Shown here: positions 1 to 64,000 of the stretch, in pieces
Position numbering within the stretch: position 1 is the first letter of the stretch
How the letters are laid out: every line of letters starts with the position of its first letter
From: Opitutaceae bacterium EW11
GTDB taxonomy: Bacteria; Verrucomicrobiota; Verrucomicrobiia; Opitutales; Opitutaceae
DNA: 64,000 bases
Assembly: GCA_003054665.1 (NCBI GenBank)
Contig: QAYY01000012.1
Coordinates: 155,679-219,678, forward strand
Reading direction: 5' to 3'
Made by a program: the position numbers and the translations under genes
Notes under the pieces: model-generated
What the model was told of the DNA's origin: nothing
What the model saw: the letters and a program-made list of their open reading frames with translations, nothing else
The model's database searches: none

Positions 1-72
1 CCTTCAGCCCTTCAGCCCTTCAGCCCTTCAGCCCTTCAGCCCTTCAGCCCTTCAGCCCTTCAGCCCTTCAGC
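1..72. repeat. Nine tandem copies of CCTTCAGC
   Basis: Nine exact copies of the octamer CCTTCAGC run from the window edge to base 72. It is the right-arm unit of the inverted-arm elements found elsewhere in this window, which otherwise carry four units per arm. The array lies just downstream of rlmN on the minus strand and overlaps its last two sense codons and stop codon (60-68). A matching left arm, if any, lies outside the window. The exactness suggests recent copy-number expansion. Confidence 0.95.
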
Positions 73-3369: not shown

Positions 3370-4005
3370 ATGCCATTGGCCGACCTGCGACGCGATTACG
3401 GACTCTCCGGGCTCCTCGAAAAGGACCTGGCGGCCGATCCGTACCGGCAATTCGACAAATGGTTTCAAGAAGCCGAAGCCGCGAAGCTTCCCGAGCCCAA
3501 CGCGATGGTGTGTTCGCTCTCCACGCGCGATGGCCATCCTTCGTCGCGGATCGTTCTGCTCAAGGCCTTCGACAGCCGGGGCTTCGTATTCTTTACCAAC
3601 TACGAGAGCCGGAAAGGCCGTGAACTCGGCGAGAATCCCCGCGCTTCCCTCCTCTTTCCCTGGTTTCCCCTGGAACGTCAGGTGATCGTCGAGGGCTCGG
3701 TGACAAAGGTCGCGCGAGAGGAGGCCGATGCCTATTTCCACAGCCGTCCGCGCGCAAACCAGCTGAGCGCGTGGGCTTCGCAACAGAGTTCCATCGTCAC
3801 GGGCCGCCCGCAGCTCGAGGACGCTCTTCGGAAAGTGGAGGAGAAGTATGCGGGCAAAGAGGTGCCCATGCCTCCGTACTGGGGCGGCTACCGAGTCGTT
3901 CCCGAAACGGTTGAGTTCTGGCAGGGCCGGCGGAGCCGGTTGCACGATCGCCTGCGCTACCGGCGCGACCGCGAAGAGTGGGTCATCGAGCGCCTTTCAC
4001 CCTGA
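3370..4005 (+). CDS. pdxH: Pyridoxamine 5'-phosphate oxidase
   Basis: This FMN enzyme oxidises pyridoxine or pyridoxamine 5'-phosphate to pyridoxal 5'-phosphate, the last step of vitamin B6 salvage. The 211-residue length matches PdxH. Typical motifs are SSRIVLLKAFDSRGFVFFTN (FMN and substrate binding), the SRPRANQLSAWASQQS segment, and a C-terminal EFWQGRRSRLHDR phosphate-binding signature. The next gene begins 12 nt after the stop, with its Shine-Dalgarno overlapping the pdxH stop codon, so the two are probably cotranscribed. No functional link between them is evident. Confidence 0.95.
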   Translation: MPLADLRRDYGLSGLLEKDLAADPYRQFDKWFQEAEAAKLPEPNAMVCSLSTRDGHPSSRIVLLKAFDSRGFVFFTNYESRKGRELGENPRASLLFPWFPLERQVIVEGSVTKVAREEADAYFHSRPRANQLSAWASQQSSIVTGRPQLEDALRKVEEKYAGKEVPMPPYWGGYRVVPETVEFWQGRRSRLHDRLRYRRDREEWVIERLSP

Positions 4006-4016
4006 GGAGTTGGTCC

Positions 4017-5636
4017 GTGCGGTATCTGCATTCCACGCCTCCGTTCGCCGCTTTGCCCGACGCGCAGGACACCCGGGACAAACCCCCTCCTGCGCCGCTT
4101 CTGGCCGCCGCGGTGCATGCGCAAAGCGAGGGCCTGCTGATCACCGGTCGCCGCTGGGGCCGCAACGGCCTGAAGATCATCTTCGCCAACGAGAGCTTTT
4201 GCGCGATGACCGGCTACACCGTCTCCGAACTTCGTCGCAAGGGCCAGGGAGCCGTGCACATCGAGAAGGCCCAACTCGCGCGGATGCAGCGCTGGGCGGC
4301 AAATCCCGAGCCGGGATCGATCTACAGCGGCGAGGGCTATCTCACGCGCAAGGACGGCGGCACCTTGTATGCCGCGTGGAACTACAGCCCGGTTTCCGAC
4401 GAGGCCGGCCACGTCACCCACATCGTCGCGACCTACCGAGACCTGACGGAAAAGCGGCGCCTGCAGGAGGCGTTGATCCACTCGCAGAGGCTGGACGCGG
4501 TCGGGCGGCTCGCCGGCGGCGTGGCTCACGACTTCAACAACCTGCTCTCGGTCATCAACGGCTACTGTGAGATTCTCGGCTCGAAACGTGGCATCCGCCG
4601 CCAGGCAGCCCACGAGTTGGAGGAGATCCATCAAGCCAGCCAGAAGGCGGCGAGCCTCGTCCGGCAGCTGCTCGCCTTCAGCCGCCGGCAGGCGATGAAC
4701 CCGAAAGTCGTCAATCTCGACCAGCTGGTGCGGGACAACGCGGAGATTCTCTCCCGGCTCCTCAAGCCCCGCAAATGGCTCGCCCTCGATCTCGACGCAG
4801 GCGATGGCAACGTGCGCGTCGATCCGTCGCAGATCCAGCAGGTGCTGCTCAACCTCACGATCAACGCCCGCGACGCTCTGGACGAAGGCGGCCGCGTCGT
4901 GTTGTCCACGTCGCTGCGCGACGTCGGTCCGGAGATGGAGCGCCGCCCGCAGGAGATGGCGCCGGGCCGCTACGTGGTGCTCACGGTCTCGGACAACGGC
5001 TGCGGCATGGACGCCGAAACTCAGGCGCATCTTTTCGAACCGTTCTTCACCACCAAGGAACAGGGCAAAGGCACCGGTCTCGGGCTCGCCCTGGTCTACG
5101 GCGTCGTCCAGCAGAGCGGCGGCTTCATCTTCGTGCGCAGCGCGCCGGGGCAGGGCTCGACCTTCGAGATTTTCCTGCCCGAGGTTCGCGAGCCGGCTCA
5201 GCCCGTCGCCGCACCGCTGCCGTCGATTCCGAGCACGCGGGGAAAAGAAACTGTCATGATCGTCGAGGACGACGATGTCGTGCGCAAGATGGTCGCCGGC
5301 ATCCTCACCGCGGACGGCTACCAGGTGATCGCGGAACGGAACGCGGAGGAAGCCCTGCACGCCGCGCGCGTGCTGCGTCACCCCATCGATCTCCTGATCA
5401 CGCAGATCGGCCCCAATCCGGGCAACGAAGGCGAGCTGCTCGCCGCCGCGCTGCACGAGATCCAGCCGAAGCTGCGAGTCCTCGGGACCTGCAATCCCGA
5501 TTGCGCGCCGTTGGGTTTTCTCGAGCCCGAATCCCAGGCGTGTCTGACAAAACCGTTTACCCTGAGCGCCCTGATGAAAGCCACACGCGCGCTCCTCGAT
5601 CACGCGCCGGTCCATAGCCCGGCGACGTCCTGCTGA
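4017..5636 (+). CDS. PAS hybrid histidine kinase with a degenerate receiver
   Basis: A cytoplasmic 539-residue sensor kinase. A PAS domain (about residues 40-145) leads into a HisKA region with the phospho-acceptor His171 in AHDFNNLL. The HATPase domain has its N box near residue 284 (NLTINARDAL), then DNGCGMD and GTGLGLAL. A receiver-like domain follows (about 410-530). It keeps the acidic pocket (EDDD) and the lysine of LTKPF, but the phospho-acceptor aspartate is replaced by glutamine (Gln463, codon 5403-5405, ITQIGP). I chose the GTG at 4017, which has GAGGAG 8 nt upstream, over an earlier GTG at 3978 inside pdxH. No transmembrane segment or cognate regulator was seen. Confidence 0.85.
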   Translation: MRYLHSTPPFAALPDAQDTRDKPPPAPLLAAAVHAQSEGLLITGRRWGRNGLKIIFANESFCAMTGYTVSELRRKGQGAVHIEKAQLARMQRWAANPEPGSIYSGEGYLTRKDGGTLYAAWNYSPVSDEAGHVTHIVATYRDLTEKRRLQEALIHSQRLDAVGRLAGGVAHDFNNLLSVINGYCEILGSKRGIRRQAAHELEEIHQASQKAASLVRQLLAFSRRQAMNPKVVNLDQLVRDNAEILSRLLKPRKWLALDLDAGDGNVRVDPSQIQQVLLNLTINARDALDEGGRVVLSTSLRDVGPEMERRPQEMAPGRYVVLTVSDNGCGMDAETQAHLFEPFFTTKEQGKGTGLGLALVYGVVQQSGGFIFVRSAPGQGSTFEIFLPEVREPAQPVAAPLPSIPSTRGKETVMIVEDDDVVRKMVAGILTADGYQVIAERNAEEALHAARVLRHPIDLLITQIGPNPGNEGELLAAALHEIQPKLRVLGTCNPDCAPLGFLEPESQACLTKPFTLSALMKATRALLDHAPVHSPATSC

Positions 5637-5785
5637 AGTCTGGGCATCGCACCGGCCGCGCTCCACGCGGCCAAGTGAAGCGAACAAACGGGGCTCGCGA
5701 ATCGCGTAAGATCCTGCTGTCTGGCGCGTCGTAGTTAGCACTGCCGCCGTTCGCTTGGCGGCTCCCCCAGAAAACCGCTTCCCCC

Positions 5786-6202
5786 ATGACGACGACCCAG
5801 GGTCTTCGCGCGTTTGCCTCCGTCGCCCTCTTCGGGCTTCTCGCCTCAATCGGATTCGCCCAAAACGCCACGATCGACGATCCGATGCCGTTCCCGCCGG
5901 AAACCGGTCCGGCGTTGCCCCACAGTTACGCACCGAAAATCACGGAACGAGCCCAGCTCGCCTACCCCGCCGAACTCAAGGAACGGCGTTGGGAAGACAC
6001 GGTGTGGATCGCGTTTCTCGTCGACCCGTCGGGCGCGGTGCACGCGCCGCGAGCGTTCTTCAGCCGGCATTCGGAATTCGAGGCGCCGGCGATCGCCGCA
6101 GTGCAGCAGAGCAAGTTCACCGGCGGCATGCACGACGGCAGGGCGGTCTGGACTCAGATGGTCGTATCCGTCCGGTTCACGAGCATCGTCAGCAACCCGT
6201 AG
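5786..6202 (+). CDS. Secreted TonB C-terminal-domain-like protein
   Basis: A 138-residue protein with a clear N-terminal signal peptide (residues 1-25, ending near GFAQN). It is followed by a region resembling the TonB C-terminal domain: strand-rich, with YPAELKERRWEDTVWIAFLVDPSGAV and a later PAIAAVQQSKFTGG helix. Verrucomicrobial genomes carry many short secreted proteins of this type that lack the TonB membrane anchor and proline-rich spanner. It is therefore unlikely to energise outer-membrane receptors by itself. There is no ExbB/ExbD partner nearby. Its role is unknown. Confidence 0.7.
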   Translation: MTTTQGLRAFASVALFGLLASIGFAQNATIDDPMPFPPETGPALPHSYAPKITERAQLAYPAELKERRWEDTVWIAFLVDPSGAVHAPRAFFSRHSEFEAPAIAAVQQSKFTGGMHDGRAVWTQMVVSVRFTSIVSNP

Positions 6203-6348
6203 CGCCACGCTGAGGGCGCCGCTGCGGCACCTTTCTCCGCCTCGCGTTTACCTCTCCACATCACGGCGCAGGCAGGGCGACACTGCAGCGTCCTCGGCTC
6301 CGGTTTTTCTGCCTTTCAGCCCCGCCGGCGATACGACTTTCTTGCCGA

Positions 6349-7065
6349 ATGCAGTTTCACCTCCTTCCGGACCGCACCGCAGGCGCCGCCGAGAACATGG
6401 CGACCGACTTCATGCTCCTGCAGCGGTATCCGAACGAACAGGACATCCGCTTCCGGCACTACGATTGGCATCGTCCTGCCTTCACCTTCGGCTACAGCCA
6501 GAAGATCGAATTCGTCCGAGGTCAGCTGCCGGCGGGCGAGGTCGTGGAACTCTGCCGTCGGCCGACAGGAGGAGGCGTCGTCGACCATCGCGCTGACTGG
6601 ACCTACGCGTTGGTAGTCCCGCGCGGGCATCCCGCCTATGACGTCCGAGCGACCGAATCCTACCGGATCGTTCATGCCTGCATCGCGGAGGCGTTCCGTG
6701 CGCTCAAACAGCCGGCTGTTTTGCACGAGCGGCCGGCCGCAGCACCCGATGGAAAACCCGCCGGCCCGGGAATCTGCTTCATCCAGGCCGAGCTCTACGA
6801 CGTGATCTCGCCCGCCAACGGGCGGAAGATCGCCGGCGCCGCGCAGAAACGGACCAAACACGGGCTGCTTTTCCAGGGTTCGATCGCACGTCAGGTGGTT
6901 TCCGCCCAGCTGGATTGGGAGGCGTTTCGCACCGGTTTTCTCGAGAGACTCGCCGCCGCTCTCGGGGTGCAGCCGGAAGAAACACCGTGGCCGGATTGGT
7001 CGGACGAGGAACTGGCCGCGCTGGTCGAGCAGTACTCCACCCCGGAGTGGAACGAGTTCCGCTGA
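6349..7065 (+). CDS. Lipoate-protein ligase A / octanoyltransferase-like protein
   Basis: A member of the biotin/lipoate protein ligase fold that activates or transfers lipoyl or octanoyl groups onto lipoyl domains. The family motif is RRPTGGGVVDHRADWTYALV near residues 70-90, and KIAGAAQKRTKHGLLFQGSI carries the conserved lysine of LplA. At 238 residues it has only the catalytic domain and lacks the C-terminal accessory domain of E. coli LplA. It may therefore be an LipM-type octanoyltransferase or half of a split ligase; I cannot tell which. A glycosyltransferase follows 43 nt downstream. Confidence 0.8.
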   Translation: MQFHLLPDRTAGAAENMATDFMLLQRYPNEQDIRFRHYDWHRPAFTFGYSQKIEFVRGQLPAGEVVELCRRPTGGGVVDHRADWTYALVVPRGHPAYDVRATESYRIVHACIAEAFRALKQPAVLHERPAAAPDGKPAGPGICFIQAELYDVISPANGRKIAGAAQKRTKHGLLFQGSIARQVVSAQLDWEAFRTGFLERLAAALGVQPEETPWPDWSDEELAALVEQYSTPEWNEFR

Positions 7066-7108
7066 GTTCAGTCTGTCGCCCGCTTTTGCGAACGACAGGC
7101 AGGCCAGC

Positions 7109-8104
7109 ATGCAACTCACGCCCGACGACATCACGATCGCGGTGACGGTTTACCGCCGCCTCGAGTACTTGGAAGCCGCGCTCGACTCCGCGGTCAACCA
7201 GACCGTTCCGGTGCGCGTGCGGCTGTACGACGACGGAGGCCAGGACTCGCCCCAGCTGACCCGCATCCTCGCGGGTTTTTCCGGCCGGGTGGAGCACATC
7301 CGGAATCCCCGCAGTCTCGGACTGTTTGGGAACATGAACGCCTGTATCCAGCAATCCTCGACACCGTGGGTTTCGATTCTCCACGACGACGACCTGGTGG
7401 AGAAGGACTTCGTCGAGCGCGTGCTCGATGTCGCCCCGGAGGTCGAGCGGTGTTCGCTTTTCTGCGGGGGCACCGTCTATCTCAAGCCCGACGGCCGGGA
7501 GTTCCATCGGTCAGATCTCGATCGGAGCCGGCGATGGAGGCGGCTTACCGCGGAGGATTTTGCGCTGAAGACGTGGTTCGCCTTTCCCGGGCAGCTGATT
7601 CATGCGCCGACGGCCCGCCAGGTTGGCGGATTCCCCACCAAGTCGATCTACACGGGCGATTGGGAGCTCTGGTTCCGCCTCGCGATGGTCGACGGCGTGG
7701 TGCAGCTCGGCGCCTACACCGGTCGGCATCGGACGCATCTCGGCGCCGGTCGAGGCACCGTCGCCGCCGCCAAGACGGGGCGGAAAATCGCCTGCTGCGG
7801 CATGCAGGCCAAACGCAACGTCCTGCGCCTGCGCCGTAGCGGGTCTGCCATGACCTACGATCGTCGAGCCTGGGTGCGCGCCTACGCTCCGATGTACCGC
7901 GACCTGATCGTCTACGCGTGGGGCATGCCGCGCTGGCTGCTCCGCTACAACCGAAAGGTCCTGCTGCTCACCGAGCCACAAGGTCGGGGGTCCCGAGCGC
8001 TCCACTACGCCTCGAGGACTCTCGGCACCGGCGCTCTCCGGCTCGCCGGGCTGGCTCGGATGCTCGCCGAGCGCACCGGCCTGCGAGCGCCGCAGACTTT
8101 CTGA
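7109..8104 (+). CDS. Family 2 glycosyltransferase
   Basis: A 331-residue inverting glycosyltransferase with a GT-A fold. The N-terminal strand ITIAVTVYRRLEYLEAALDS is followed by the nucleotide-sugar motif LYDDGG and by the metal-binding HDDD (about residues 92-95). An acceptor region TGDWELWFRLAM lies near residue 190. The arginine-rich C-terminal half carries no obvious membrane segment. The acceptor and donor sugars are unknown. Its plus-strand orientation and isolation from the 12-18 kb sugar genes leave its pathway open. Confidence 0.85.
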   Translation: MQLTPDDITIAVTVYRRLEYLEAALDSAVNQTVPVRVRLYDDGGQDSPQLTRILAGFSGRVEHIRNPRSLGLFGNMNACIQQSSTPWVSILHDDDLVEKDFVERVLDVAPEVERCSLFCGGTVYLKPDGREFHRSDLDRSRRWRRLTAEDFALKTWFAFPGQLIHAPTARQVGGFPTKSIYTGDWELWFRLAMVDGVVQLGAYTGRHRTHLGAGRGTVAAAKTGRKIACCGMQAKRNVLRLRRSGSAMTYDRRAWVRAYAPMYRDLIVYAWGMPRWLLRYNRKVLLLTEPQGRGSRALHYASRTLGTGALRLAGLARMLAERTGLRAPQTF

Positions 8105-8156
8105 CGAGCTGGACTTCACCGTCAGTGCCGCGCTCGGATTGCGGTCTGTTCGGCGG

Positions 8157-8192
8157 CGAAAAAAGAGAAAGGGCGCGACCGAAGTCGCGCCC
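8157..8192 (-). terminator. Rho-independent terminator with UUCG loop
   Basis: Read on the minus strand, a perfect 9-bp stem GGGCGCGAC / GTCGCGCCC encloses a UUCG tetraloop closed by C-G. It is followed by TTTCTCTTTTTT. It lies 40 nt downstream of the DUF4412 gene and is well placed to end its transcript. On the plus strand it lacks a T-run. Confidence 0.85.
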
Positions 8193-8231
8193 CGAAAAGC
8201 TCCGCCCTCCCTCTGCTCGAGCAGGTCCGGA

Positions 8232-8975
8232 TCACTCGCCCCCGCCGGGGACCATGCCCTTGAACATGCCGCCCAGGCTGAACTTCTGGTAGTCCGCGGG
8301 CGGCTTGAAGAGCGCGTCGGGCTGCGAGCCCTTGTCCACCGAGACCGTCTCCGTGCGCATCACTTCCTTGCCGTCCTTGCCGTGGCTGACCATGCGCAGC
8401 GGAAAGAAATCGCCCGATTTCATGAAGGCCTCTGCCTCGCTCGTCTTCGCCGGGCCGCGTTTTCCCTGGTTCGCCATCATGTATTGGCCGAGCCCCTTGG
8501 TCACCCAGAGATCCGTCTGCATGCCCTGCGACGTGCCGACGTATTCTTCCGTATCATACCCGGCGATCTTCTCCTTCCGGCCGGTGGGCTTGAAACTCAT
8601 CGCCGCGGCGGTCTCCTTGCCCTTCTCCACCTGGGCGTCCGTCATCTTGTGCACCATGTACATCTTCTGCTGGGGCATGAGCATGGTGAACTCCTTGGCG
8701 TCGGCATCGATCAACATCACTGCGGTGATGCTCGCCGGAGCCTGGCTTCCACCCTCCTCCTGATGGCGCTTGCGCTCGCGACGCTCCTCCTTGTCCGGCG
8801 TAACCGTGGTTTCGATGCGCATCTTCGTGCCTTTGACGAAGTAGGTGACCGGCATCGTCTCCTTGCCGGTTGTCATGTTCATCGTGATCTTGCCTTCGAA
8901 CGCCCAGGAAGAGGCGGCGGTGAGAAGTCCCAGCGTACAAACCGCGAGGAATCGTTTGAGGGAGCAGGGTTTCAT
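8232..8975 (-). CDS. Secreted DUF4412 protein
   Basis: A 247-residue exported protein. It has a signal peptide (residues 1-26, ending near SSWAF), then a beta-rich domain beginning FEGKITMNMTTGKETMPVTYFVKGTKMR (split here only by reading). This matches the DUF4412 family, whose members resemble LolA/LolB-like lipoprotein-binding barrels. A central methionine-rich stretch (MLIDADAKEFTMLMPQQKMYM) is typical of the family. A strong terminator follows. The function is not known. The gene stands alone between convergent and co-directional neighbours. Confidence 0.8.
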   Translation of the reverse strand: MKPCSLKRFLAVCTLGLLTAASSWAFEGKITMNMTTGKETMPVTYFVKGTKMRIETTVTPDKEERRERKRHQEEGGSQAPASITAVMLIDADAKEFTMLMPQQKMYMVHKMTDAQVEKGKETAAAMSFKPTGRKEKIAGYDTEEYVGTSQGMQTDLWVTKGLGQYMMANQGKRGPAKTSEAEAFMKSGDFFPLRMVSHGKDGKEVMRTETVSVDKGSQPDALFKPPADYQKFSLGGMFKGMVPGGGE

Positions 8976-9171
8976 AGAGGAAGGTTGAGCGGATGGGATC
9001 TGCGCCCGCCGTCGTCCGACGTGCCTGGCGCAAACAAATCCTTCCCGGAATCTGCGTGGGGGTTACGCGGGAAGGTGGATTTCCACTGCGATAGTGGCCT
9101 CCCCGAATCAGATCAATCTTGGATACGTCACGGCGCCGCGATGCAAACCCGCGGCAGTCCGGCCAGACTCC

Positions 9172-11073
9172 TCACGGGTCCTGATTCCGCCTCCAGGGGA
9201 AGGGATCGAGCCCCAGCTGGCCCTGCGTCAACGTGAGCTTCCGCGTCTCCAAGGCCCGCGGATCCCGCACTTCGAGCGCGATGGAATCGCCGTTGCGGCG
9301 GTGCACGAAGAGGCGCCCGAGATCGCTGTCCGGATTGAACCGCGCGACGAAGCTCCGAATGTCGCGCCCATCCGCCGAGACGATTTCCGTGCCGGGCTGA
9401 ATTCCTTTCTGCGCCGCCTCCGAATCCGCAGCGACTTTCCGAACCACAAGCCGCTCCACGCGATTCGTCTTTCGATGGGCGGACACGTTGAACGCCAGCC
9501 CGAACGACGTCCAGACCATGGCCCGGTCGCGCACCAGCACCGGTGCGAGTCGCACCAGATCCTCACCCGAGCCAGAGAGCGCGGAGCGGAGCCATTGAAT
9601 CCGTTCCTCCTGGGCGAAACCGCGCTCGATCGCCGAGTCGAGCGACTCCTTGGCTTTTTTGCGCTCGCCGGACAGGGCATACGCCACCGCGAGGTCGAAA
9701 TGCAGGTACGCGGGCTCCGGATGGATCGTCAGCGCCTGCGAAAACTCGCGGGCCGCGGTGGCGTACTCGCGATCGTCCAGCGCTTGGCGGCCCTGCTCGA
9801 TCAACGAGACAAACGCCCCGCTGAGGACCCGGCGAGCAGCATGATTGGTTTTCCCCCAGCCCTCCAATTCCCGGACAAAATCGGCGAACACCGCGCGCTG
9901 GCCCGCATCCGGTAGTTCCGAGTTCATCGTCCCCAAGCTCCCCAACTCCGTGCGATCGGCTCCAGCCACCGGGTCGCCGAACGTGCTGCGGCGCTCGCGG
10001 GATTCCATCGCGGCGCGCATCTGCATTTCTCGCTCCAGGCGGCGATGCGATGCCTCCCCCGTCGAAAGCTCCTCAGCCGCGATTTCCTGGAGCCGGTCCC
10101 GCCAACCCTTCTCCTGGTTCGCCGCCTTTTGCTCCGATTTCTCCCAACGTCTGAGCTCCTTCGATCCCTTGAACGATCCAACTTTGGCTTCCGCCTCCGC
10201 GACCGACCGCATGCCCCGGAAGTCCGCGACCAGCGATTCGTACGCGGCGCAGACTCGGCCGATCTCCGTCTCGGCCTTCGCGGCGGCAAGGTGCTTCTGC
10301 CAGAGCGACTCGATCCAGGCGGCGTCGCGCGGAATCACCTCCGAGCGCATGGCCTGAAGATGTATCCACTCCACGGCTTCGAAGGCCACTTCCGGCGGAG
10401 GCCAGCCGTGCCCGCCGTCGTAGAAAACGACGCGATGCGGCGTGTGGCGCACGCTCAGGGAGACATCCGTCTCCCTCAGTTCCTGGTAGTTGAAATCGTC
10501 GAGTCCTGCCGCGCCGAAAAACACCGGCTTCACCTGCGACGGCATGCTACCGGCGGAGAACGCGGCGGAAAACGCGATCACACCGGCGATGCCGCTGCCC
10601 TGCCCGAGCGAGCACGCCACCCTCGCCCCACCCGACATGCCGGCCGCGTACACCCGATGGCGGTGCATGGGAATGCGCTTGGGCACGTCGCGCAGCAGCG
10701 CGTTCAGCGCCTCGACCAGTTCCTCGGACGCCCCGTTGCGGCAGTTGTTGGAGCCGATCACGACGTAGCCATAGCGCCGGGCGGCGGGCAAAAAGACCTC
10801 GATCGCACGACGGCCGTTGCCGGCCGGATCGAAAGCCAGGATCACCGGCCAGGCCCGATCGGAGGAGTAGTTGGGCGGTAGATACGCAGCGTACGAATGC
10901 CCGGGGGCGTCGGCACACGGCACCGGGTCGACCACTTCGCCCGCGGTCCAGCGCACCGCGTCGATCCCCGCTTTTTCAGCGGGCGGCTTCTCTTCCGCCG
11001 GCGCCTGCCCGGCAAGCAAGGTCGCCGCCGCGAGAACCGGGACGAACACGAGACTGCGGATGACCTTGGACAT
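9172..11073 (-). CDS. Secreted esterase with TPR and PDZ domains
   Basis: A 633-residue three-part protein. After a signal peptide (residues 1-27) comes an alpha/beta-hydrolase of the PHB-depolymerase/feruloyl-esterase type. It has nucleophile Ser147 in AAGMSGGA, a probable acid at Asp192 or Asp193 (AAGLDDF), and His222 in YDGGHGWPPPE. A long charged helical region (about 240-390) leads to tetratricopeptide repeats (about 430-510). A C-terminal PDZ-like domain (about 540-620, with AAQKGIQPGTEIVSADGRDI) closes it. I start at ATG 11073, because the 14 extra codons to GTG 11115 lack a ribosome site and precede the signal peptide. The combination suggests a periplasmic or outer-membrane esterase held in a complex. 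The substrate is unknown. Confidence 0.75.
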   Translation of the reverse strand: MSKVIRSLVFVPVLAAATLLAGQAPAEEKPPAEKAGIDAVRWTAGEVVDPVPCADAPGHSYAAYLPPNYSSDRAWPVILAFDPAGNGRRAIEVFLPAARRYGYVVIGSNNCRNGASEELVEALNALLRDVPKRIPMHRHRVYAAGMSGGARVACSLGQGSGIAGVIAFSAAFSAGSMPSQVKPVFFGAAGLDDFNYQELRETDVSLSVRHTPHRVVFYDGGHGWPPPEVAFEAVEWIHLQAMRSEVIPRDAAWIESLWQKHLAAAKAETEIGRVCAAYESLVADFRGMRSVAEAEAKVGSFKGSKELRRWEKSEQKAANQEKGWRDRLQEIAAEELSTGEASHRRLEREMQMRAAMESRERRSTFGDPVAGADRTELGSLGTMNSELPDAGQRAVFADFVRELEGWGKTNHAARRVLSGAFVSLIEQGRQALDDREYATAAREFSQALTIHPEPAYLHFDLAVAYALSGERKKAKESLDSAIERGFAQEERIQWLRSALSGSGEDLVRLAPVLVRDRAMVWTSFGLAFNVSAHRKTNRVERLVVRKVAADSEAAQKGIQPGTEIVSADGRDIRSFVARFNPDSDLGRLFVHRRNGDSIALEVRDPRALETRKLTLTQGQLGLDPFPWRRNQDP

Positions 11074-11130
11074 GGGCCGCTGACCAAAACACCGAAATGG
11101 CCCGATTCCCTTCACGCCAAGGCCTCCGGT

Positions 11131-11592
11131 CTATTCGATCCGGCCCTCGTCGAAGTCGATCAGGTCGGGGACGCTCTTAATCTCTCCCGCCCGATCGGCG
11201 CAGCCCATCTTTTCGAGGGCCTCCCGAAGAAACTGCTGCCCCGCCTCCGTCATGCCCTTCTGCACGAGCTCCCGGTTCCACTTCGCCGCACGGACGTCCT
11301 TGGGAAACAGCGCGAGGAGTCTCTCGTCGAGTTCGCGATCGCTCGCCGCTTCGTGGACGATCTTCTCCACCGCCGCCGGATCGACGCCGAGATGCAGGCA
11401 GAGAAACCGGTCGATCCCGCGCTTGTAGTTCTTCGCGTAGCTCGGAGGAAGCGCGCCGTGCTCCTTCACGTACCGGCATTTCGCGATGAAGCGCGGGAGA
11501 TAGAGAAGTCCCGTCGCAGGATGCGGAATGTACGGCGAAGGCAGGCAGGTGAGGACGTCGCCAGACGAGCCCGGAATCGGTTTGGAAGCCAT
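11131..11592 (-). CDS. DUF5069 protein
   Basis: A 153-residue soluble protein that I recognise as DUF5069, a family common in Verrucomicrobiota and Planctomycetota. Typical features are the early PSPYIPHPATGLLYLPRFIAK segment (written here as two adjoining pieces), the YKRGIDRFLCLHLGVD stretch and a helical C-terminal half. It has no signal peptide or membrane segment. The 60 nt to the FkbM gene upstream are short enough for cotranscription. The biochemical role is unknown. Confidence 0.75.
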   Translation of the reverse strand: MASKPIPGSSGDVLTCLPSPYIPHPATGLLYLPRFIAKCRYVKEHGALPPSYAKNYKRGIDRFLCLHLGVDPAAVEKIVHEAASDRELDERLLALFPKDVRAAKWNRELVQKGMTEAGQQFLREALEKMGCADRAGEIKSVPDLIDFDEGRIE

Positions 11593-11652
11593 GCGCCCAG
11601 CGCACCGCGTCGCAGCCCGGTCCGCAATCTCGGAGGTGGTCCGGTTGCGTCC

Positions 11653-12567
11653 TCAACCGCGCCAAGCCCAGGTAGTGAGGTGTTCGGGATAGCCCGTCTC
11701 CACTTGATAGCCGACTCGCCGGAACAGCTCTTCGAGCAAGGACGACGTGGGGCGGTTTTCGCGGAGATGATAGCTCGCGATCGCGAAGCGAATCGACTGC
11801 CGGGCGATGAACTCCAAGGAGCCTTCAATCGTATCCACCTCGGCGCCCTCGATGTCCATCTTCACAAAACCGGGCGCCGTTCCGGCGATCTCCGCCGCCT
11901 CTTCCAGGCCGAGCACCTCCACCTCGGCGTTGCTGGCCCCGGGCTCCAGGTGAGAACCCAAGCCGCCGCCGCCGTGGAAGGCGAGGCGCCCCGATGTTCT
12001 CCAGAGTCCCCGCCGCAGGACGACAACGTTGCGAAGGCCGGCCGCAGCCACGTTGGCTTCCAGGAACTCGGCGTTGGCGGGATCCGGCTCGAAGGCAAAA
12101 ACACGTCCGCGCCCACCGACCAGCCGCGCAAAAACAATCGTCATTTCGCCGCAGTAGGCGCCGGCATCGAAAACCACCTCGCCTTCGGACGGCTTGCCGC
12201 GCAGCAGATACCCGGAGCAGAAGTCGGCGAGTTCCGGTAGCTCCGGCAACCGCAGGCGATCTCCCGTTGCAGGAATCCGGTACCAGGTCGGCGCGCGGCA
12301 ATCGGCGGTTGGACGAGGACGGCCCTCGTCGAAAACCAGACGGCGCTCGAAGTCGGAAAACATCCCAAGGATCGTCCATACGAGCGAGGCCTGCCCCAGG
12401 GGAAACCAGACATCCCTGCCGTTCACCGTGACGCGAATGCCGTCGTGGCTAAACGCGAGTTCCGCGCCGATGGCCCGGGCGCGATCGCGCAAGCGGCGGC
12501 CGACTTGGGTGATTCCCCAGCGCAGAGCGGCGCTGTACGGCCATCCAGATTTCAACGGGTGATTCAT
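11653..12567 (-). CDS. FkbM-family methyltransferase
   Basis: A 304-residue S-adenosylmethionine-dependent methyltransferase of the FkbM family, which O-methylates sugars or small acceptors. The SAM motif I is VVFDAGAYCGEMTIVFA, followed by VFAFEPDPANAEFLEANV (acidic motif II). The family hallmark FVKMDIEGAE is near residue 230. The first 100 residues are not part of the catalytic core. It stands between DUF5069 and a GT8 glycosyltransferase, all on the minus strand and closely spaced. A role in modifying a surface glycan is the simplest reading. Confidence 0.85.
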   Translation of the reverse strand: MNHPLKSGWPYSAALRWGITQVGRRLRDRARAIGAELAFSHDGIRVTVNGRDVWFPLGQASLVWTILGMFSDFERRLVFDEGRPRPTADCRAPTWYRIPATGDRLRLPELPELADFCSGYLLRGKPSEGEVVFDAGAYCGEMTIVFARLVGGRGRVFAFEPDPANAEFLEANVAAAGLRNVVVLRRGLWRTSGRLAFHGGGGLGSHLEPGASNAEVEVLGLEEAAEIAGTAPGFVKMDIEGAEVDTIEGSLEFIARQSIRFAIASYHLRENRPTSSLLEELFRRVGYQVETGYPEHLTTWAWRG

Positions 12568-19965: not shown

Positions 19966-19978
19966 GGAGAAAAGGAAG

Positions 19979-20107
19979 GGCTGAAGGACTGAAGGGCTGA
20001 AAGTCTGAAGGAGGAGCGACTAGATTAGTTCGACGGTGGCTCGGGCGGAAGGATCGTTTGGCCGAAGGGCATTTGTTTCAGCCCTTCAGCCTTTCATTCC
20101 TTCAGCC
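19979..20107. repeat. Inverted four-unit octamer element between gltB and gltD
   Basis: The left arm 19979-20010 consists of four octamers (GGCTGAAG, GACTGAAG, GGCTGAAA, GTCTGAAG). The right arm 20076-20107 consists of four octamers (TTTCAGCC, CTTCAGCC, TTTCATTC, CTTCAGCC). The arms are complementary at 27 of 32 positions and enclose a 65-nt loop without a gene. In the gltBD mRNA they would fold into a long hairpin. Its ends lie 9 nt from the gltB stop and 13 nt from the gltD start. Confidence 0.9.
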
Positions 20108-20116
20108 CTTGATTTG

Positions 20117-46788: not shown

Positions 46789-46812
46789 TGCCGCGCCGCC
46801 GCGGCGCGGCGG

Positions 46813-47025
46813 GAAGTTGGAAGTCAGAATCTGGAAATTTGATGCTCGTAACGAACCAATGAATACCGATCGGGCTTCGTGTACTTCGCTTCTTCGCAAG
46901 ATGACTTCTGGAGTGTCTCGCGGTGGCGCGAAGGTCGCGGAGTCTGGGCGCGGCGGGACAGGATATCTGCCCTGCCGGGGAGCGGGTGGAATTCCACCAA
47001 CTTCCAATTCCTAACTTCCAACTTC
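46813..47025. repeat. Inverted four-unit heptamer element
   Basis: The left arm 46813-46840 consists of four 7-bp units (GAAGTTG, GAAGTCA, GAATCTG, GAAATTT). The right arm 46998-47025 consists of four (CAACTTC, CAATTCC, TAACTTC, CAACTTC). Complementarity is 22 of 28, with the outer unit perfect. The 157-nt loop has no convincing gene and ends in a 14-bp palindrome GGTGGAATTCCACC (46985-46998). It fills the spacer between the ABC ATPase and permease genes, copying the design of the octamer elements with another sequence. Confidence 0.75.
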
Positions 47026-47062
47026 CACTCCCCAGCTTTCCGTCGCCTCCGGCGGCGCTCCC

Positions 47063-57322: not shown

Positions 57323-58198
57323 ATGTCTTGGCGTAAACTGCTCGTTGCGCTGGCCCCGCTTGCGTCCGCAAGCTCATTGTTGGCCGCGGAAGGCGGGCAC
57401 TCCGGCGTCGCGACGGCGGCCGAGCCGCTCTTCCACGTCGCAGGCCTGCCGGTGACAAATAGCATCGTGACGAGCTGGCTGGTCGCCGCCGTTCTCATCG
57501 TCGCAATTCGCCTCGCGGTGCGACGCCCCAAACTGATCCCGACTGCGGGCCAGGCGGTCGTGGAGAGTCTGGTTCAAGGAGTTCTCGATCTTACTTCGCC
57601 GATCGTCGGTTCGAAGGTCGCCAAACATACGTTCCCGCTGCTGGTCGGTCTTTTCATCTTCATCCTGATCCAGAACTGGAGCGGACTGTTTCCCGGCGTC
57701 GGCACGCTCTTCTGGGGCAGCGAGCCGCTGGTTCGCCCGGGGAATGCCGACATGAACGGCACCGTGGCGCTCGCGGTCGTCGCGACCCTCGGCTGGCTGT
57801 ATTTTATCGTTCGCTACGCGGGGCCGAAGGCCATCCTCTTCGACATCTTTGGCAACAAGGCCGACAAGAAGGAGATTCCGGCGGTCATCTATTATTTCCT
57901 TTTCCTGATCTTTTTTGCGGTCGGTCTGATTGAGATCGTCTCGATCATGTTTCGCCCCGTGTCGCTCTCGTTCCGACTTTTCGGCAACGTGTTCGGCGGT
58001 GAAAACCTGATGCATGCCATGTCGGCGATGCAGCGTTGGGGCCTTCCGATTCCTTTCTACTTCCTCGAAGTGCTGATCGGCTTCGTCCAGGCGCTGGTCT
58101 TCACGCTTCTGGTCAGCGTGTACATCGGCCTCATCTGCAACCACGGCGACGATCACCACGAGGAAGCCGGCCACGGCGAAAAACCCGCGCACCATTGA
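57323..58198 (+). CDS. atpB: ATP synthase Fo subunit a
   Basis: A 291-residue membrane subunit forming the proton half-channels with the c ring. A short hydrophobic leader (LLVALAPLASASSLLA) is followed by about five membrane helices. The essential arginine is in PVSLSFRLFGNVFGGE. The C-terminus is histidine-rich (HGDDHHEEAGHGEKPAHH). ATG 57323 is chosen over 57242 because the extra 27 residues are atypical. It heads the atp operon; no atpI is seen upstream in the 184-nt spacer. The leader before the start is CU-rich without a Shine-Dalgarno. Confidence 0.95.
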   Translation: MSWRKLLVALAPLASASSLLAAEGGHSGVATAAEPLFHVAGLPVTNSIVTSWLVAAVLIVAIRLAVRRPKLIPTAGQAVVESLVQGVLDLTSPIVGSKVAKHTFPLLVGLFIFILIQNWSGLFPGVGTLFWGSEPLVRPGNADMNGTVALAVVATLGWLYFIVRYAGPKAILFDIFGNKADKKEIPAVIYYFLFLIFFAVGLIEIVSIMFRPVSLSFRLFGNVFGGENLMHAMSAMQRWGLPIPFYFLEVLIGFVQALVFTLLVSVYIGLICNHGDDHHEEAGHGEKPAHH

Positions 58199-58265
58199 TC
58201 CCTTTCCCGCCGGGAGCGTGCCAACGAGTGCGCACGGCGGAAATCCAACCAACGAAAATCCCGTT

Positions 58266-58475
58266 ATGATTACAGCAATCGCAGAAGTCACCGGTAGCAT
58301 TCAAGGCGCGCTCGGCTGCTTGGCCGCCGCCATCGGCGTAGGCCTTGTCGGCACGAAGGCCGTCGAAGCCGTCGGTCGCAATCCCGGCGCGTCCGGCAAG
58401 ATCCTCGTTCAGTCCATCATCGGTATGGCGCTGGCCGAAGCCGTCGCGTTCTACTCGCTGTTCCTCGGTAAATAA
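58266..58475 (+). CDS. atpE: ATP synthase Fo subunit c
   Basis: A 69-residue proteolipid with two helices linked by the polar loop VGRNPGASGK. The ion-binding carboxylate is the glutamate in GMALAEAVAFYSL of helix 2. The residues that bind sodium in Na+ types (glutamine in helix 1 and serine or threonine after the glutamate) are absent, which argues for proton coupling. ATG 58266 gives the standard length; an ATG-like start at 58218 would add a non-family leader. Confidence 0.95.
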   Translation: MITAIAEVTGSIQGALGCLAAAIGVGLVGTKAVEAVGRNPGASGKILVQSIIGMALAEAVAFYSLFLGK

Positions 58476-58546
58476 CCGTTTCCCGCATCGCCGCATTGAG
58501 CGGCGATGCGTCCCTTTCCCCGTAGCCTCGTTCTTGTCCGTCCGCC

Positions 58547-59131
58547 ATGCTCTCCAATCTGTTCGTGCTCGCTGAAGCCGCTGTCCACGCGACCGAAACC
58601 GCCGCTGCTGCCGGCGAAGCCAGTGGGATCACGAAGATCCTGAATGACTTTGGAATTCGAGTACCCGATCTGATCGCTCAGATCGTGAACTTCTCGATCG
58701 TGGCGTTCATTCTCTGGCGCTTTGCATTCAAGCCGGTGATGGCGTCGATCCAGGAGCGCCAGGAGAAGATTCAGGCAGGTTTGAAGTATGCGGAGGATAT
58801 GAAAGCCCAGCTTGCGGCAGCGCAGCAGGAGAGTGCGGCGCTCGTGAAGCAGGCCCAGCTCGAGGCCAACCGCATCATCGAAGAATCCCGACGCACCGCC
58901 AAGGAGCTCTCCGACAAGGCTCAGAAAGACGCGTCCGACAACGCGAACGCGATCATCGCGAAAGCGCAGCAGGCGATCGAGCTCGAGCACAAGAAGATGC
59001 TCGCTGACGCCCGTGGCGAGATTGCCCGCCTCGTCGTGGTGACGACGGAGCGCGTCTTGGCCAAGCGCCTCTCGGATTCCGATCGCGCCACCTTCAACGA
59101 AGCCGCCGCGAAGGAGCTCACTTCGGTCTGA
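58547..59131 (+). CDS. atpF: ATP synthase Fo subunit b
   Basis: A 194-residue stator subunit. A hydrophobic anchor (about residues 42-58, LIAQIVNFSIVAFILWRF) is preceded by an unusual 30-residue alanine-rich segment. A long right-handed helix follows, rich in Glu, Lys and Gln, ending at the dimer and delta-binding region. It lies 71 nt after atpE and is followed by an octamer element before atpH. Confidence 0.95.
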   Translation: MLSNLFVLAEAAVHATETAAAAGEASGITKILNDFGIRVPDLIAQIVNFSIVAFILWRFAFKPVMASIQERQEKIQAGLKYAEDMKAQLAAAQQESAALVKQAQLEANRIIEESRRTAKELSDKAQKDASDNANAIIAKAQQAIELEHKKMLADARGEIARLVVVTTERVLAKRLSDSDRATFNEAAAKELTSV

Positions 59132-59137
59132 TCAAAA

Positions 59138-59240
59138 GGCTGAAAGACCGATGGGCTGAAAGGCTGAATGCCCAAGCCTCCCAGAATCCCGCAAACCCCG
59201 CTCATCTTCTTCAGCCTTTCAGTCCTTCAGCCCTTCAGCC
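59138..59240. repeat. Inverted four-unit octamer element between atpF and atpH
   Basis: The left arm 59138-59169 reads GGCTGAAA, GACCGATG, GGCTGAAA, GGCTGAAT. The right arm 59209-59240 reads CTTCAGCC, TTTCAGTC, CTTCAGCC, CTTCAGCC. Arms match at 26 of 32 positions around a 39-nt gene-free loop. It starts 6 nt after the atpF stop and ends 10 nt before the atpH start. Confidence 0.93.
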
Positions 59241-59250
59241 ATTTTCCTCC

Positions 59251-59643
59251 ATGTCTTCCCAGAAACAGATCCAGCACCTCGCTCGCCAGCTCTTCCGGCT
59301 GAGTCTGGCTGACGGCCGCCTTTCCGACGAGCGCGTCGCCGGCGTTCTGGAATACGTCGAGAAGACAAAGCCGGCGCATGCGACCGCCGTCCTCAAGGCT
59401 TTTCACCGGCTGGTCGCCGCCGAAGTCGCCCGCGGTCAGGCCGTGGTGGAACACGCGGGACCTGTATCGGCAGAAACGCTACAGAGCATCGCCTCTTCTC
59501 TGACGAAGCGGTACGGCCGTCCCATTGCGGCGGCGAGCCGCCCGAACCCCGCGCTGCTGGCCGGACTCCGCGTCCGTGTTGGCGACGACATTTACGAGTC
59601 TTCCGTTTCCGGACAGCTCAGCCAGCTGGCTGCAGCCGTCTGA
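59251..59643 (+). CDS. atpH: ATP synthase F1 subunit delta (short form)
   Basis: A 130-residue delta subunit that links the b stator to the F1 head. It is shorter than the usual 175-180 residues. The N-terminal helical bundle is reduced, whereas the C-terminal strand-rich part (LLAGLRVRVGDDIYESSVSGQLSQL) is retained. Position between atpF and atpA supports the call. The ATG follows the right arm of an octamer element by 10 nt, with a CU-rich leader (TTTTCCTCC) and no Shine-Dalgarno. Confidence 0.88.
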   Translation: MSSQKQIQHLARQLFRLSLADGRLSDERVAGVLEYVEKTKPAHATAVLKAFHRLVAAEVARGQAVVEHAGPVSAETLQSIASSLTKRYGRPIAAASRPNPALLAGLRVRVGDDIYESSVSGQLSQLAAAV

Positions 59644-59682
59644 TCCCTTTCAAAAACTAACAACCAAGCGCGTAGCGCCCCA

Positions 59683-61209
59683 ATGAGCACGGTCCTCGAA
59701 CAAATCGAACAGCAGATCGCCAAGCTGCAGAACAAGGCGGTCAAAAAGAACACCGGCACCATCCGCTCGGTCGCCGACGGCGTCGCTCGCCTCGACGGTC
59801 TTTCCGACGTGATGTACAACGAGATGATCGAGTTCCCCGGCGGGACGATCGGCATCGCGCTCAACCTCGAGGAGGACGAGGTGGGTTGCGTGGTTCTCGG
59901 CGACATCTCGAAGCTGAAGGAAGGCGACGAGTGCAAGACCACGGGGCGGCTTCTCTCTGTCCCCGTGGGCAAGGCCCTCCTGGGCCGCACGGTCGACGCG
60001 CTGGGGAATCCGGTCGACGGCAAGGGCCCGGTCGATGCGAAAGAGTTCTACCCGGTCGAAAAGATCGCGCCCGGCATCATCGTTCGGAAATCCGTCACGC
60101 AGCCGGTGTTCACCGGCATCATGGCGATCGACTCCATGATCCCGATCGGCCGCGGTCAGCGCGAGTTGATCATCGGCGATCGCGGCACGGGCAAGACGAC
60201 CATCGCGATCGACACGATCATCAACCAGGCGAAGATCAACCGCGTCGGGCTGGCGAGCGGCGATCCGAAGTTCCGCCCGATGTATTCGATCTACGTCGCG
60301 ATCGGTCAGAAGAATTCCAACATCGTTCGCACGATGGCCGCCCTCGAGGCCGCAGGGGCGCTGGAATTCACCATCATCGTCGCGGCCGCCGCTTCGGAGA
60401 ATCCCGCCAATCAATACCTCGCTCCGTACTCCGGCGCGGCGATGGGCGAGTGGTTCATGGAAAACGGCATGGATGCCCTGATCGTTTACGACGATCTCTC
60501 CAAGCACGCCGTCGCCTACCGCCAGATTTCCTTGATTCTGAAGCGCCCCTCCGGCCGCGAAGCGTATCCCGGCGACGTCTTTTATCTGCATAGCCGCCTT
60601 CTCGAACGCGCGGCGCGCCTCGACGGCAAGGGTTCGCTGACGGCACTGCCGATCATCGAAACGCTCGCGGGCGACCTTTCGGCGTACATTCCGACGAACG
60701 TCATTTCGATCACCGACGGGCAGATCTTTCTCGAAACCGACCTCTTCAATCAGGGCACGCGTCCCGCAGTCTCGGTCGGTCTCTCCGTCTCGCGCGTCGG
60801 CTCCGCCGCGCAGATCAAGGCGACGAAGCAGGTCGGCGGTAAGCTGAAGGGCGAGCTGGCGCAGTTCCGCGAGCTGGCGGCATTCGCCCAGTTTGGCGCC
60901 GATCTCGACGCCAGGACCAAAGCCCAGCTCGATCGCGGCACCCGCATCGTTGAGCTTTTCAAGCAGCCCGCCTTCAATCCCATCCCGATCGAACAGCAAG
61001 TGGTGACCCTCTGGGCGATGCAGAAAGGCTACTACGACGCGATCGACCTCAAGAAGGTGAACGCTGCGGCGGTCAAACTGCGCGAATTCTTCGCCACCCG
61101 GAAGGACGCCCTCCTCACGAAGATCCGCAACAAGGCCGCCCTCGACGCCGAGCTCGAAGCCGAGATCAAGACCGCCGTCGACGAGTGGAAAGCCACCTAC
61201 GCCGGCTGA
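59683..61209 (+). CDS. atpA: ATP synthase F1 subunit alpha
   Basis: The 508-residue non-catalytic nucleotide-binding subunit. Walker A is GDRGTGKT (165-172). ATP-contact and arginine-finger motifs [18 protein letters not shown] and [20 protein letters not shown] (by parts) are conserved, and length is normal. It is followed directly by the octamer element that carries an extra gene, whose left arm starts 8 nt after the stop. The native junction with atpG is thus interrupted. Confidence 0.98.
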
Positions 61210-61217
61210 ATGCAGAA

Positions 61218-61652
61218 GGCTGAAAGACTGAAGGACTGAAAGGCTGATGACTCCGGCCCCATGCTTCATCAAACGGGAGACCTACGGAGCAGAACGTTCC
61301 AGTTCGCTCGAAGGATTTCCCGTGTCTTTGAAGCACTCCCGAGAAAGCGGCTCGCCAACATCTATGGCGTGCAACTCGTCCGATCAGCAAATTCGGTCGC
61401 AGCCAACTACCGCGAAGCTCAGCGGGCACGTTCCAAGGCGGAGCATTTCTCGAAACTCGGCGACTGCCTCCGTGAAGCAGACGAGACACTCTACTGGCTT
61501 GAAGCCATCGAAGCAGATGCGCTCCTCTCGGCAGTACGGCTTTCTGAAATCAAAGACGAGTGCGGCCAGCTCGTGGCCATTTTCGTTACACTTCTCAAGA
61601 AGCGCTGACTCCTCGCGGAGCTTCAGCCCTTCAGCCCTTCAGCCCTTCAGCT
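61218..61652. repeat. Octamer inverted-arm element carrying a four-helix-bundle gene
   Basis: The left arm 61218-61249 reads GGCTGAAA, GACTGAAG, GACTGAAA, GGCTGATG. The right arm 61621-61652 reads CTTCAGCC three times and CTTCAGCT. Arms match at 26 of 32 positions. The 371-nt interior is almost exactly the four-helix-bundle gene, with 11 nt before its ATG and 12 nt after its stop. The whole 435-bp unit sits between atpA and atpG, ending 7 nt before the atpG start. Confidence 0.93.
61261..61608 (+). CDS. Four-helix-bundle protein (S23/IVS, Avd-like)
   Basis: A 115-residue all-helical protein of the family first seen in intervening sequences of 23S rRNA genes. It is structurally like the Avd accessory protein of diversity-generating retroelements. 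The pattern is FARRISRVFEALP, VQLVRSANSVAANYREAQRA, FSKLGDCLREADETLYWLE and ECGQLVAIFVTLLKK for helices 1-4. The RSANSVAANY motif is the family hallmark. Its function is unknown; relatives bind nucleic acid. It lies inside octamer arms within the atp operon, on the same strand as atp genes, and is therefore transcribed with them. No reverse transcriptase or rRNA gene is near. Confidence 0.9.
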   Translation: MLHQTGDLRSRTFQFARRISRVFEALPRKRLANIYGVQLVRSANSVAANYREAQRARSKAEHFSKLGDCLREADETLYWLEAIEADALLSAVRLSEIKDECGQLVAIFVTLLKKR

Positions 61653-61659
61653 TTTCCTA

Positions 61660-62532
61660 ATGGCATCGACTAGAGACATTCGACGGCGCATTAAGTCCGT
61701 AAAGAACACCCGCCAGATCACGAAGGCGATGGAGTTGGTGGCGGCGTCGAAGATGAAAAAGGCGCAGCAGGCCGCTCTCGCGGGCCGGCCCTACGCCCAG
61801 TTGATGGCTTCGATGCTGGCCGCCCTCGCTCCCCACGTGGAGGAGTCGATGCATCCGTTTCTCGCCAAGCGCGAGGTGAAGGTTCGCGGTATCCTTCTTG
61901 TCACGACGGACAAGGGCCTTTGCGGACCGCTCAACGCCAACCTTTTCAAGCTCGTGGCCGACGTGAAGACGCCGGCCAAATTCGCCGCCATCGGCCGCAA
62001 GGGGGCCCAGTTCCTCGCTCGCACGAAGCGTGATCTCATGGCCGATTTCCAGGTGCACGACCGCGTGCCGTTCCCCGAGGTGAAGGTTGCGATCGAGTTC
62101 ATGGTGAAACAGTACCTCGAGGGCGTGATCGACACGGTCGAGGTGATCTATGCCCGCTTCAAGAACACCCTCGTCCAGGAACCGTCCGTTCGCCCCATCC
62201 TCCCGCTGACAAGCGTTGCGGAGTTCATCGCGCACGCCTCGACCGAAGCCGGAGCGACCGCGAAGCCCGACGCGCGCGAGATGCTCTTCGAACCGAGCGC
62301 CCAGCAGGTGCTCGAGTCCCTTCTGCCGTTCTACGTCAATCGCACCATCTATCAGCACGTGCTGAGCGGCAAGGCCTCCGAACACAGCGCCCGGATGGTC
62401 GCGATGAAGACCGCCAAGGACAACGCGAGCAAACTGCTCGGCGATCTCACCCTCGAGTACAACAAGGCCCGCCAGGCCGGCATCACCCAGGAAATCCTGG
62501 AAATCGCCGCCGCCCAGTACGCGTCCTCATAA
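61660..62532 (+). CDS. atpG: ATP synthase F1 subunit gamma
   Basis: The 290-residue rotor shaft. The N-terminal RDIRRRIKSVKNTRQITKAM and MELVAASKMKKAQ helix and the C-terminal MKTAKDNASKLLGDLTLEYN coiled-coil helix are both conserved. The middle Rossmann-like part begins GILLVTTDKGLCGPLN. The start ATG lies 7 nt after an octamer arm with leader TTTCCTA, so no Shine-Dalgarno. The stop is 1 nt before the next octamer element. Confidence 0.97.
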   Translation: MASTRDIRRRIKSVKNTRQITKAMELVAASKMKKAQQAALAGRPYAQLMASMLAALAPHVEESMHPFLAKREVKVRGILLVTTDKGLCGPLNANLFKLVADVKTPAKFAAIGRKGAQFLARTKRDLMADFQVHDRVPFPEVKVAIEFMVKQYLEGVIDTVEVIYARFKNTLVQEPSVRPILPLTSVAEFIAHASTEAGATAKPDAREMLFEPSAQQVLESLLPFYVNRTIYQHVLSGKASEHSARMVAMKTAKDNASKLLGDLTLEYNKARQAGITQEILEIAAAQYASS

Positions 62533-62533
62533 A

Positions 62534-64000
<1,467 letters not shown>

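Follow-up and report, generated by a model that had tools for sequence, protein, structure and literature searches.

In Coxiella, a 28-bp stem closes the loop in which the intervening sequence (IVS) of the 23S rRNA gene carries an S23p open reading frame (ORF); tandem heptamers precede the ORF, and RNase III excises the IVS (PMC4990558). Heptameric repeats have been described as GGGAATC in Xanthomonas, GGGGATT in Nostoc and the short tandemly repeated repetitive (STRR) sequences of cyanobacteria, mostly with about four units per tract and frequently in convergent pairs; the same paper notes, without explaining it, that heptamers are overrepresented in bacteria, and does not contain the term "S23" (PMC4692102). 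Here, we analyzed a 64,000-nt stretch of the genome of Opitutaceae bacterium EW11 (contig QAYY01000012.1, positions 155,679 to 219,678; hereafter, the window), in which a gene of the S23 family (PF05635/TIGR02436; hereafter, IVP) lies between inverted tandem-repeat arms at the atpA-atpG junction of an atp operon with the gene order atpB-atpE-atpF-atpH-atpA-atpG-atpD. We consider it probable that this element is a minimal cassette, i.e., a small basic four-helix IVP/S23 gene framed by inverted arms of 7- or 8-bp units at an operon junction and co-directional with the operon, and that it represents an IVS-like counterpart of the rRNA inserts in mRNA operons. To our knowledge, where 23S rRNA IVSs and S23 proteins come from, what they do, and how they move are questions that date from about 1990 and still lack an answer, and no explanation is generally accepted for the overrepresentation of heptamer repeats in bacterial genomes.

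Tandem Repeats Finder and ORF analysis confirmed the original prediction that inverted arms of four octamers surround one gene between atpA and atpG (Table 1), the left arm reading AAGGCTGAAAGACTGAAGGACTGAAAGGCTGA. The gene is enclosed as proposed, but the interior between the arms measures 373 nt instead of 371 nt, and the arms, although recognizable as an inverted repeat, match imperfectly (arm alignment score of 24). When the whole cassette was folded as RNA, the arms paired end to end and enclosed the gene (−176 kcal/mol; z = −4.1; 0/100 shuffles), so that an S23p ORF lies within complementary stem-forming ends, as in an IVS. No Rfam matches were found in positions 58000–64000 of the window.

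The IVP ORF scored above the curated cut-offs of both PF05635 (50.1 bits; cut-off, 33.8) and TIGR02436 (74.7 bits; cut-off, 24), which places it, as had been proposed, in the four-helix family of 23S-rRNA intervening-sequence proteins. Its AlphaFold2 model is a four-helix bundle (pLDDT of 94.9) with the fold of 2rld (Z = 18.9) and 2gsc (Z = 16.7), which are its closest PDB structures, both belong to the S23 family and contain five chains per entry. The earlier description of the protein as "Avd-like" holds for the fold (Z of ~13 to Avd of diversity-generating retroelements, a level that de novo helix bundles also reach), but the two S23-family structures are far closer. Avd itself forms a five-fold assembly. 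The protein is basic, as is its family (median pI of 9.3), and R11, R41, R51, and K65 are invariant across 20 diverse members. Because dN is ~0.2 while dS is near saturation, the IVP protein is under selection and kept functional, and the element is not simply decaying junk.

The link between gene and arms extends well beyond this locus. Inverted flanks (score ≥18) were found at 35 of the 61 IVP genes of related genomes versus 9 of 611 control ORFs drawn from two of these genomes (800 kb in total) (Fisher p = 2e-33; odds ratio of 90), which agrees with the proposal that gene and arms form one unit; one GxxExxY gene and one KilA-N gene were among the best-scoring controls. Outside the relatives, inverted flanks passed in 54/80 IVP loci of named genomes from ten or so phyla, with armed IVP genes present in Verrucomicrobiota, Acidobacteriota, Chloroflexota, Bacteroidota, Cyanobacteriota, Planctomycetota, Thermodesulfobacteriota, Ignavibacteriota, and others. 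IVP genes occurred in 20 plasmid records, and the gene was flanked by heptad repeats on either side at all six plasmid loci analyzed (inverted matches scoring 16.5 to 35), while phage records gave two weak matches only. Plasmid IVP cassettes (L375–L379) were observed within defence operons (DISARM drmD-MmeI, csx2-cas1, DUF1156-Swt1/HEPN, and helicase-N6 methylase). A location in rRNA was considered for the fetched IVP loci and rejected, as a search of 161 loci revealed no 23S motif. Sampling for tandem-repeat hairpins yielded none in 600 kb of six IVP-free genomes and 33 of period 7–8, very unevenly distributed, in ~1.46 Mb of nine IVP-bearing genomes (100–400 kb per genome, 64 kb for the window; relatedness uncorrected).

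The arms were selected by inverted similarity only, so that their repeat period was observed and not imposed by the selection. Among 101 IVP cassettes, the period was 7 in 89 and 8 in 12, the unit sequence differed nearly everywhere, and 4–6 units formed the commonest arm length class; the class thus has the tandem 7-bp intergenic units of heptameric and STRR repeats, the window's own unit being 8 bp. The arms of GxxExxY genes (PF13366, PD-(D/E)XK nuclease superfamily) had a period of 9 or 10 in 17/21 cases. The number of GxxExxY genes correlated with the number of period-9 arms across 57 genomes (Spearman 0.60) and within the family (0.43), where the number of IVP genes gave 0.18 (not significant), with relatedness uncorrected in both comparisons. 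GxxExxY loci (L203–L232, e.g., L206 and L207), with inverted arms of 9–10-bp units of the CACGGAGGA type, were frequent at gatA-gatB or sugar ATP-binding cassette (ABC) permease junctions and form a second cassette type. KilA-N was considered as a third regular cargo and rejected, with arms at only 1/4 loci; in one region (L184, G002:C1:20001-40000, positions 3500–11700), inverted hairpins of GGAGTCA units stand at nuo-gene junctions, and one of them encloses a KilA-N gene.

The window contains 31 copies of the unit pair CTGAARGNCTGAA versus 0.36 expected, a number that no shuffle reached, and across the genome (6.4 Mb) 112 instances of a three-unit pattern compare with 0 of its backward control. 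The genome contains ~30 inverted arm pairs, nearly all of them empty, with seemingly unrelated interiors of roughly 20–300 nt; the three gene-less pairs expected at atpF-atpH, atpG-atpD, and gltB-gltD were all located (Table 1). Its IVP matches number three, one of them a decayed remnant, and all three lie within arms, each of a different unit: GGCTGAAA at the atp locus, GGAAGTT at the second (L001, C45), as in an empty pair of the window, and GAGGTCA at the remnant (L003, G000:C3:607593-610742, about 1420–1860). The remnant lies between lysC and thrC (named from their translations) with its arms intact, and it is an intermediate between a filled and an empty element. Together with the empty GGAAGTT pair, these three loci indicate that filled, decaying, and empty elements coexist in the genome, in which no GxxExxY gene and no arm of period 9–10 was found. 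In many relatives, IVP genes occupy junctions of the same type as that of the empty GGAAGTT pair. Perfect octamer arrays of nine units at the start of the window and of about 13 units elsewhere (L053, G000:C2:349000-353000, positions 1882–1989) resemble arms recently expanded by slippage.

Table 1. Coordinates of the atpA-atpG cassette and of other repeat arms in the window
Feature	Position	Strand	Details
Whole cassette	61210..61660	+	atpA stop at 61209, atpG start at 61660
Left arm	61216-61247	+	Four 8-bp units of GGCTGAAA type; Tandem Repeats Finder; inverted-repeat match to right arm
IVP gene	61261-61608	+	115 aa, four-helix-bundle protein of PF05635/TIGR02436, pI 9.7
Right arm	61621-61651	-	Four perfect CTTCAGCC octamers, inverted; Tandem Repeats Finder
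Empty arm pair, atpF-atpH	59134-59244	.	41 nt between arms
Empty arm pair, atpG-atpD	62531-62635	.	37 nt between arms
Empty arm pair, gltD-gltB	19971-20115	.	67 nt between arms
Empty arm pair, other unit (GGAAGTT, period 7)	46812-47026	.	Between ABC-transporter ATPase and its permease
Nine perfect CCTTCAGC octamers	1..72	-	Right arm; left arm just beyond the window (G000:C4:155504)

The abundance of empty pairs is what would be expected if the arms were independent intergenic hairpins, REP-like or heptamers born by slippage, and the IVP genes were ordinary genes inserted into or tolerated beside them. The heptamers of Xanthomonas and Nostoc, which form convergent pairs and are described with no mention of S23 genes (PMC4692102), fit this explanation as well, and so does the lack of co-variation between arms within elements. 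Specifically, a permutation test in this genome found the left and right arms of an element to resemble each other no better than arms taken from different elements (p = 0.52), so that a pairing specific to each element is not supported for the octamer arms. On the other hand, three findings argue against independent hairpins: arms are enriched at IVP genes relative to 611 genes of two of these genomes, the period depends on the cargo, and such hairpins were missing from the sampled parts of IVP-free genomes. We regard this alternative as unlikely.

Comparison of orthologous atp junctions, as the original prediction had suggested, revealed gene-with-arms, arms-only, and clean states in congeners. 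That prediction had staked the cassette on the gene not standing between atpA and atpG without arms, and in the relatives examined every IVP gene seen at an atp junction had them. One relative (G006) has an IVP gene on either side of atpG and another (G016) has one after atpG, whereas G033 and a Lacunisphaera metagenome-assembled genome (MAG) have it at atpA-atpG and an Ereboglobus MAG at atpG-atpD; in Cerasicoccus, whose neighbouring genes were assigned by clustering alone, the site is probably atpA-atpG. Arms of other units but no gene occupy atp junctions in L086, L087, L090, and L101, and further relatives have a plain junction. In two species of one genus (G197 and G168), orthologous octamer arms at atpA-atpG enclose the gene in G197 and ~75 nt of filler in G168, while at atpG-atpD both arms and gene are present in G168 and neither is present in G197; no target-site duplication was evident in this one comparison. 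In two genomes of the same family but different genera (G211 and G036), two neighbouring junctions are reciprocally filled and empty, with one unit per genome used at both junctions and different between the two genomes. Within the family, most atp operons are without IVP, and IVP cassettes are found repeatedly at the sdhA-sdhB and trpB-yicC junctions and at those of ABC transporters.

In a maximum-likelihood tree, 156 IVP proteins grouped by insertion site (8 label changes versus 25 in shuffles), and the nine atp copies clustered together (with one unplaced sequence among them) even as they spanned both junctions and four or more arm units. These patterns imply that the gene usually keeps its site as it is passed on, that it is frequently lost, and that arm sequences turn over faster than it does. 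Judging from the sequences, IVP cassettes would be mainly old residents whose movement is rare, e.g., between the two atp junctions. The repeat-bounded part of the original prediction is strongly supported and the "mobile or selfish" part only partly, as the tree follows the site and the protein is under selection. As to orientation, 98 of 119 IVP loci were co-directional with both neighbours and 6 were opposite to both; strands were called by a heuristic pick based on GC content at third codon positions (GC3), because in GC-rich DNA calls based on the longest ORF gave spurious antisense genes and were abandoned. By analogy with rRNA IVSs, this sense-orientation bias points to the transcript.

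Purifying selection on IVP, a site-faithful phylogeny, and repeated occurrence at the same kinds of junction (sdhA-sdhB, trpB-yicC, ABC transporter) could also be explained by a vertically inherited regulatory module of operons, e.g., one tuning atpG/atpD expression, that is not selfish. We consider this improbable, given that the distribution is patchy, with most atp operons of the family lacking a cassette, that the sites are very diverse and include plasmid defence operons, and that the arm units change while the gene stays. We regard as very improbable a non-autonomous DNA transposon akin to miniature inverted-repeat transposable elements (MITEs), with the arms as terminal inverted repeats, a transposase acting in trans, and IVP as passenger or accessory: inverted termini, multiple copies, plasmid-borne cassettes, and presence/absence at orthologous sites would suit it, but the constant terminal inverted repeats of MITEs are missing, as units differ between loci in one genome, between orthologous sites, and between species, the one clean comparison has no evident target duplication, the IVP tree follows the site, and the strong sense orientation is unexpected for DNA transposition.

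Returning to the IVS-like cassette, we propose, by analogy, that the atpA-atpG element very likely works like an rRNA IVS. In the atp transcript, the arms would pair into a stem of ~30 bp with the gene in its loop, which would be either cut or bypassed, and cutting of this stem by RNase III may allow the IVP gene to be tolerated or released. The IVP protein may in turn bind the arms, perhaps with one subunit per 7–8-nt unit, which would fix the period and not the sequence. The idea of one subunit per unit comes from the five chains in each of the 2rld and 2gsc entries, taken together with arms of commonly 4–6 units, and a reading of the repeats by the encoded protein is suggested because the period is fixed, the sequence is free, and the period changes with the cargo. 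Cargo may be gained or lost between existing arms, and the arms themselves could spread by slippage and recombination, which would leave many empty pairs.

Several observations weigh against this interpretation. Since left and right arms do not co-vary within elements, there is no clear sign of selection for strict stem pairing. In 100 kb each, three of the nine IVP-bearing genomes had no hairpin of period 7–8 or 9–10, and IVP genes with a single arm or none also occur, in particular at an ABC-permease junction. Nor are the arms exclusive to IVP: many pairs contain no gene, and similar boxes surround GxxExxY genes and one KilA-N gene. In addition, the species sampling is phylogenetically uneven, and the orientation counts (98/119) depend on heuristic strand calls.

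It is conceivable, if somewhat short of an even chance, that these cassettes belong to a wider class present in many phyla, in which the arms are coded by period, the cargo (IVP or GxxExxY) fixes a period of 7–8 or 9–10 but not the sequence, and arms and cargo form a self-maintaining pair; 23S IVSs would then be the rRNA-resident branch of this class and the bacterial excess of 7-bp repeats its footprint. The occurrence of armed IVP genes in about ten phyla suggests that a class of minimal genetic hitch-hikers, akin to the rRNA inserts, has gone unrecognized. Finding the same gene family and arm type in protein operons, with a cargo-specific period, joins the IVS/S23 puzzle to that of the heptamer excess and means that essential operons routinely carry such inserts. 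Full-text literature searches, which mostly did not cover subscription papers, returned no report joining S23/IVP genes to such arms outside rRNA or describing a period-specific cargo, and we provisionally regard both the S23/IVP-arm link and the period-specific cargo as novel.

Compared with known systems, the IVP cassettes are closest to the 23S IVSs of Leptospira and Coxiella, with which they share the protein family, its position in an inverted-repeat stem loop (~28 bp), a sporadic distribution and, in the case of Coxiella, tandem heptamers ahead of the ORF (PMC4990558). They differ in residing at protein-operon junctions, in having freely variable arm units, and in that excision is here a presumption; since it does not lie in rRNA, the atpA-atpG element is outside the rRNA IVSs as defined. 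Like the heptamers of Xanthomonas and Nostoc, the arms have 7-bp units, are intergenic, lie near the neighbouring 5′ ORF, and often form convergent pairs (PMC4692102), but those heptamers were described as G-quadruplex repeats with neither cargo nor S23/IVP link, and many IVP-arm units are not G-rich. With Avd, IVP shares the four-helix fold (4dwl and 8ub7; Z of ~13), whereas sequence identity is ~10% and Avd acts with a reverse transcriptase. Finally, the cassettes resemble MITEs and repetitive extragenic palindromic (REP) elements in being short, intergenic, inverted, and multicopy, but, unlike them, they carry a gene, have no constant termini, and are bounded by arms made of tandem repeats.
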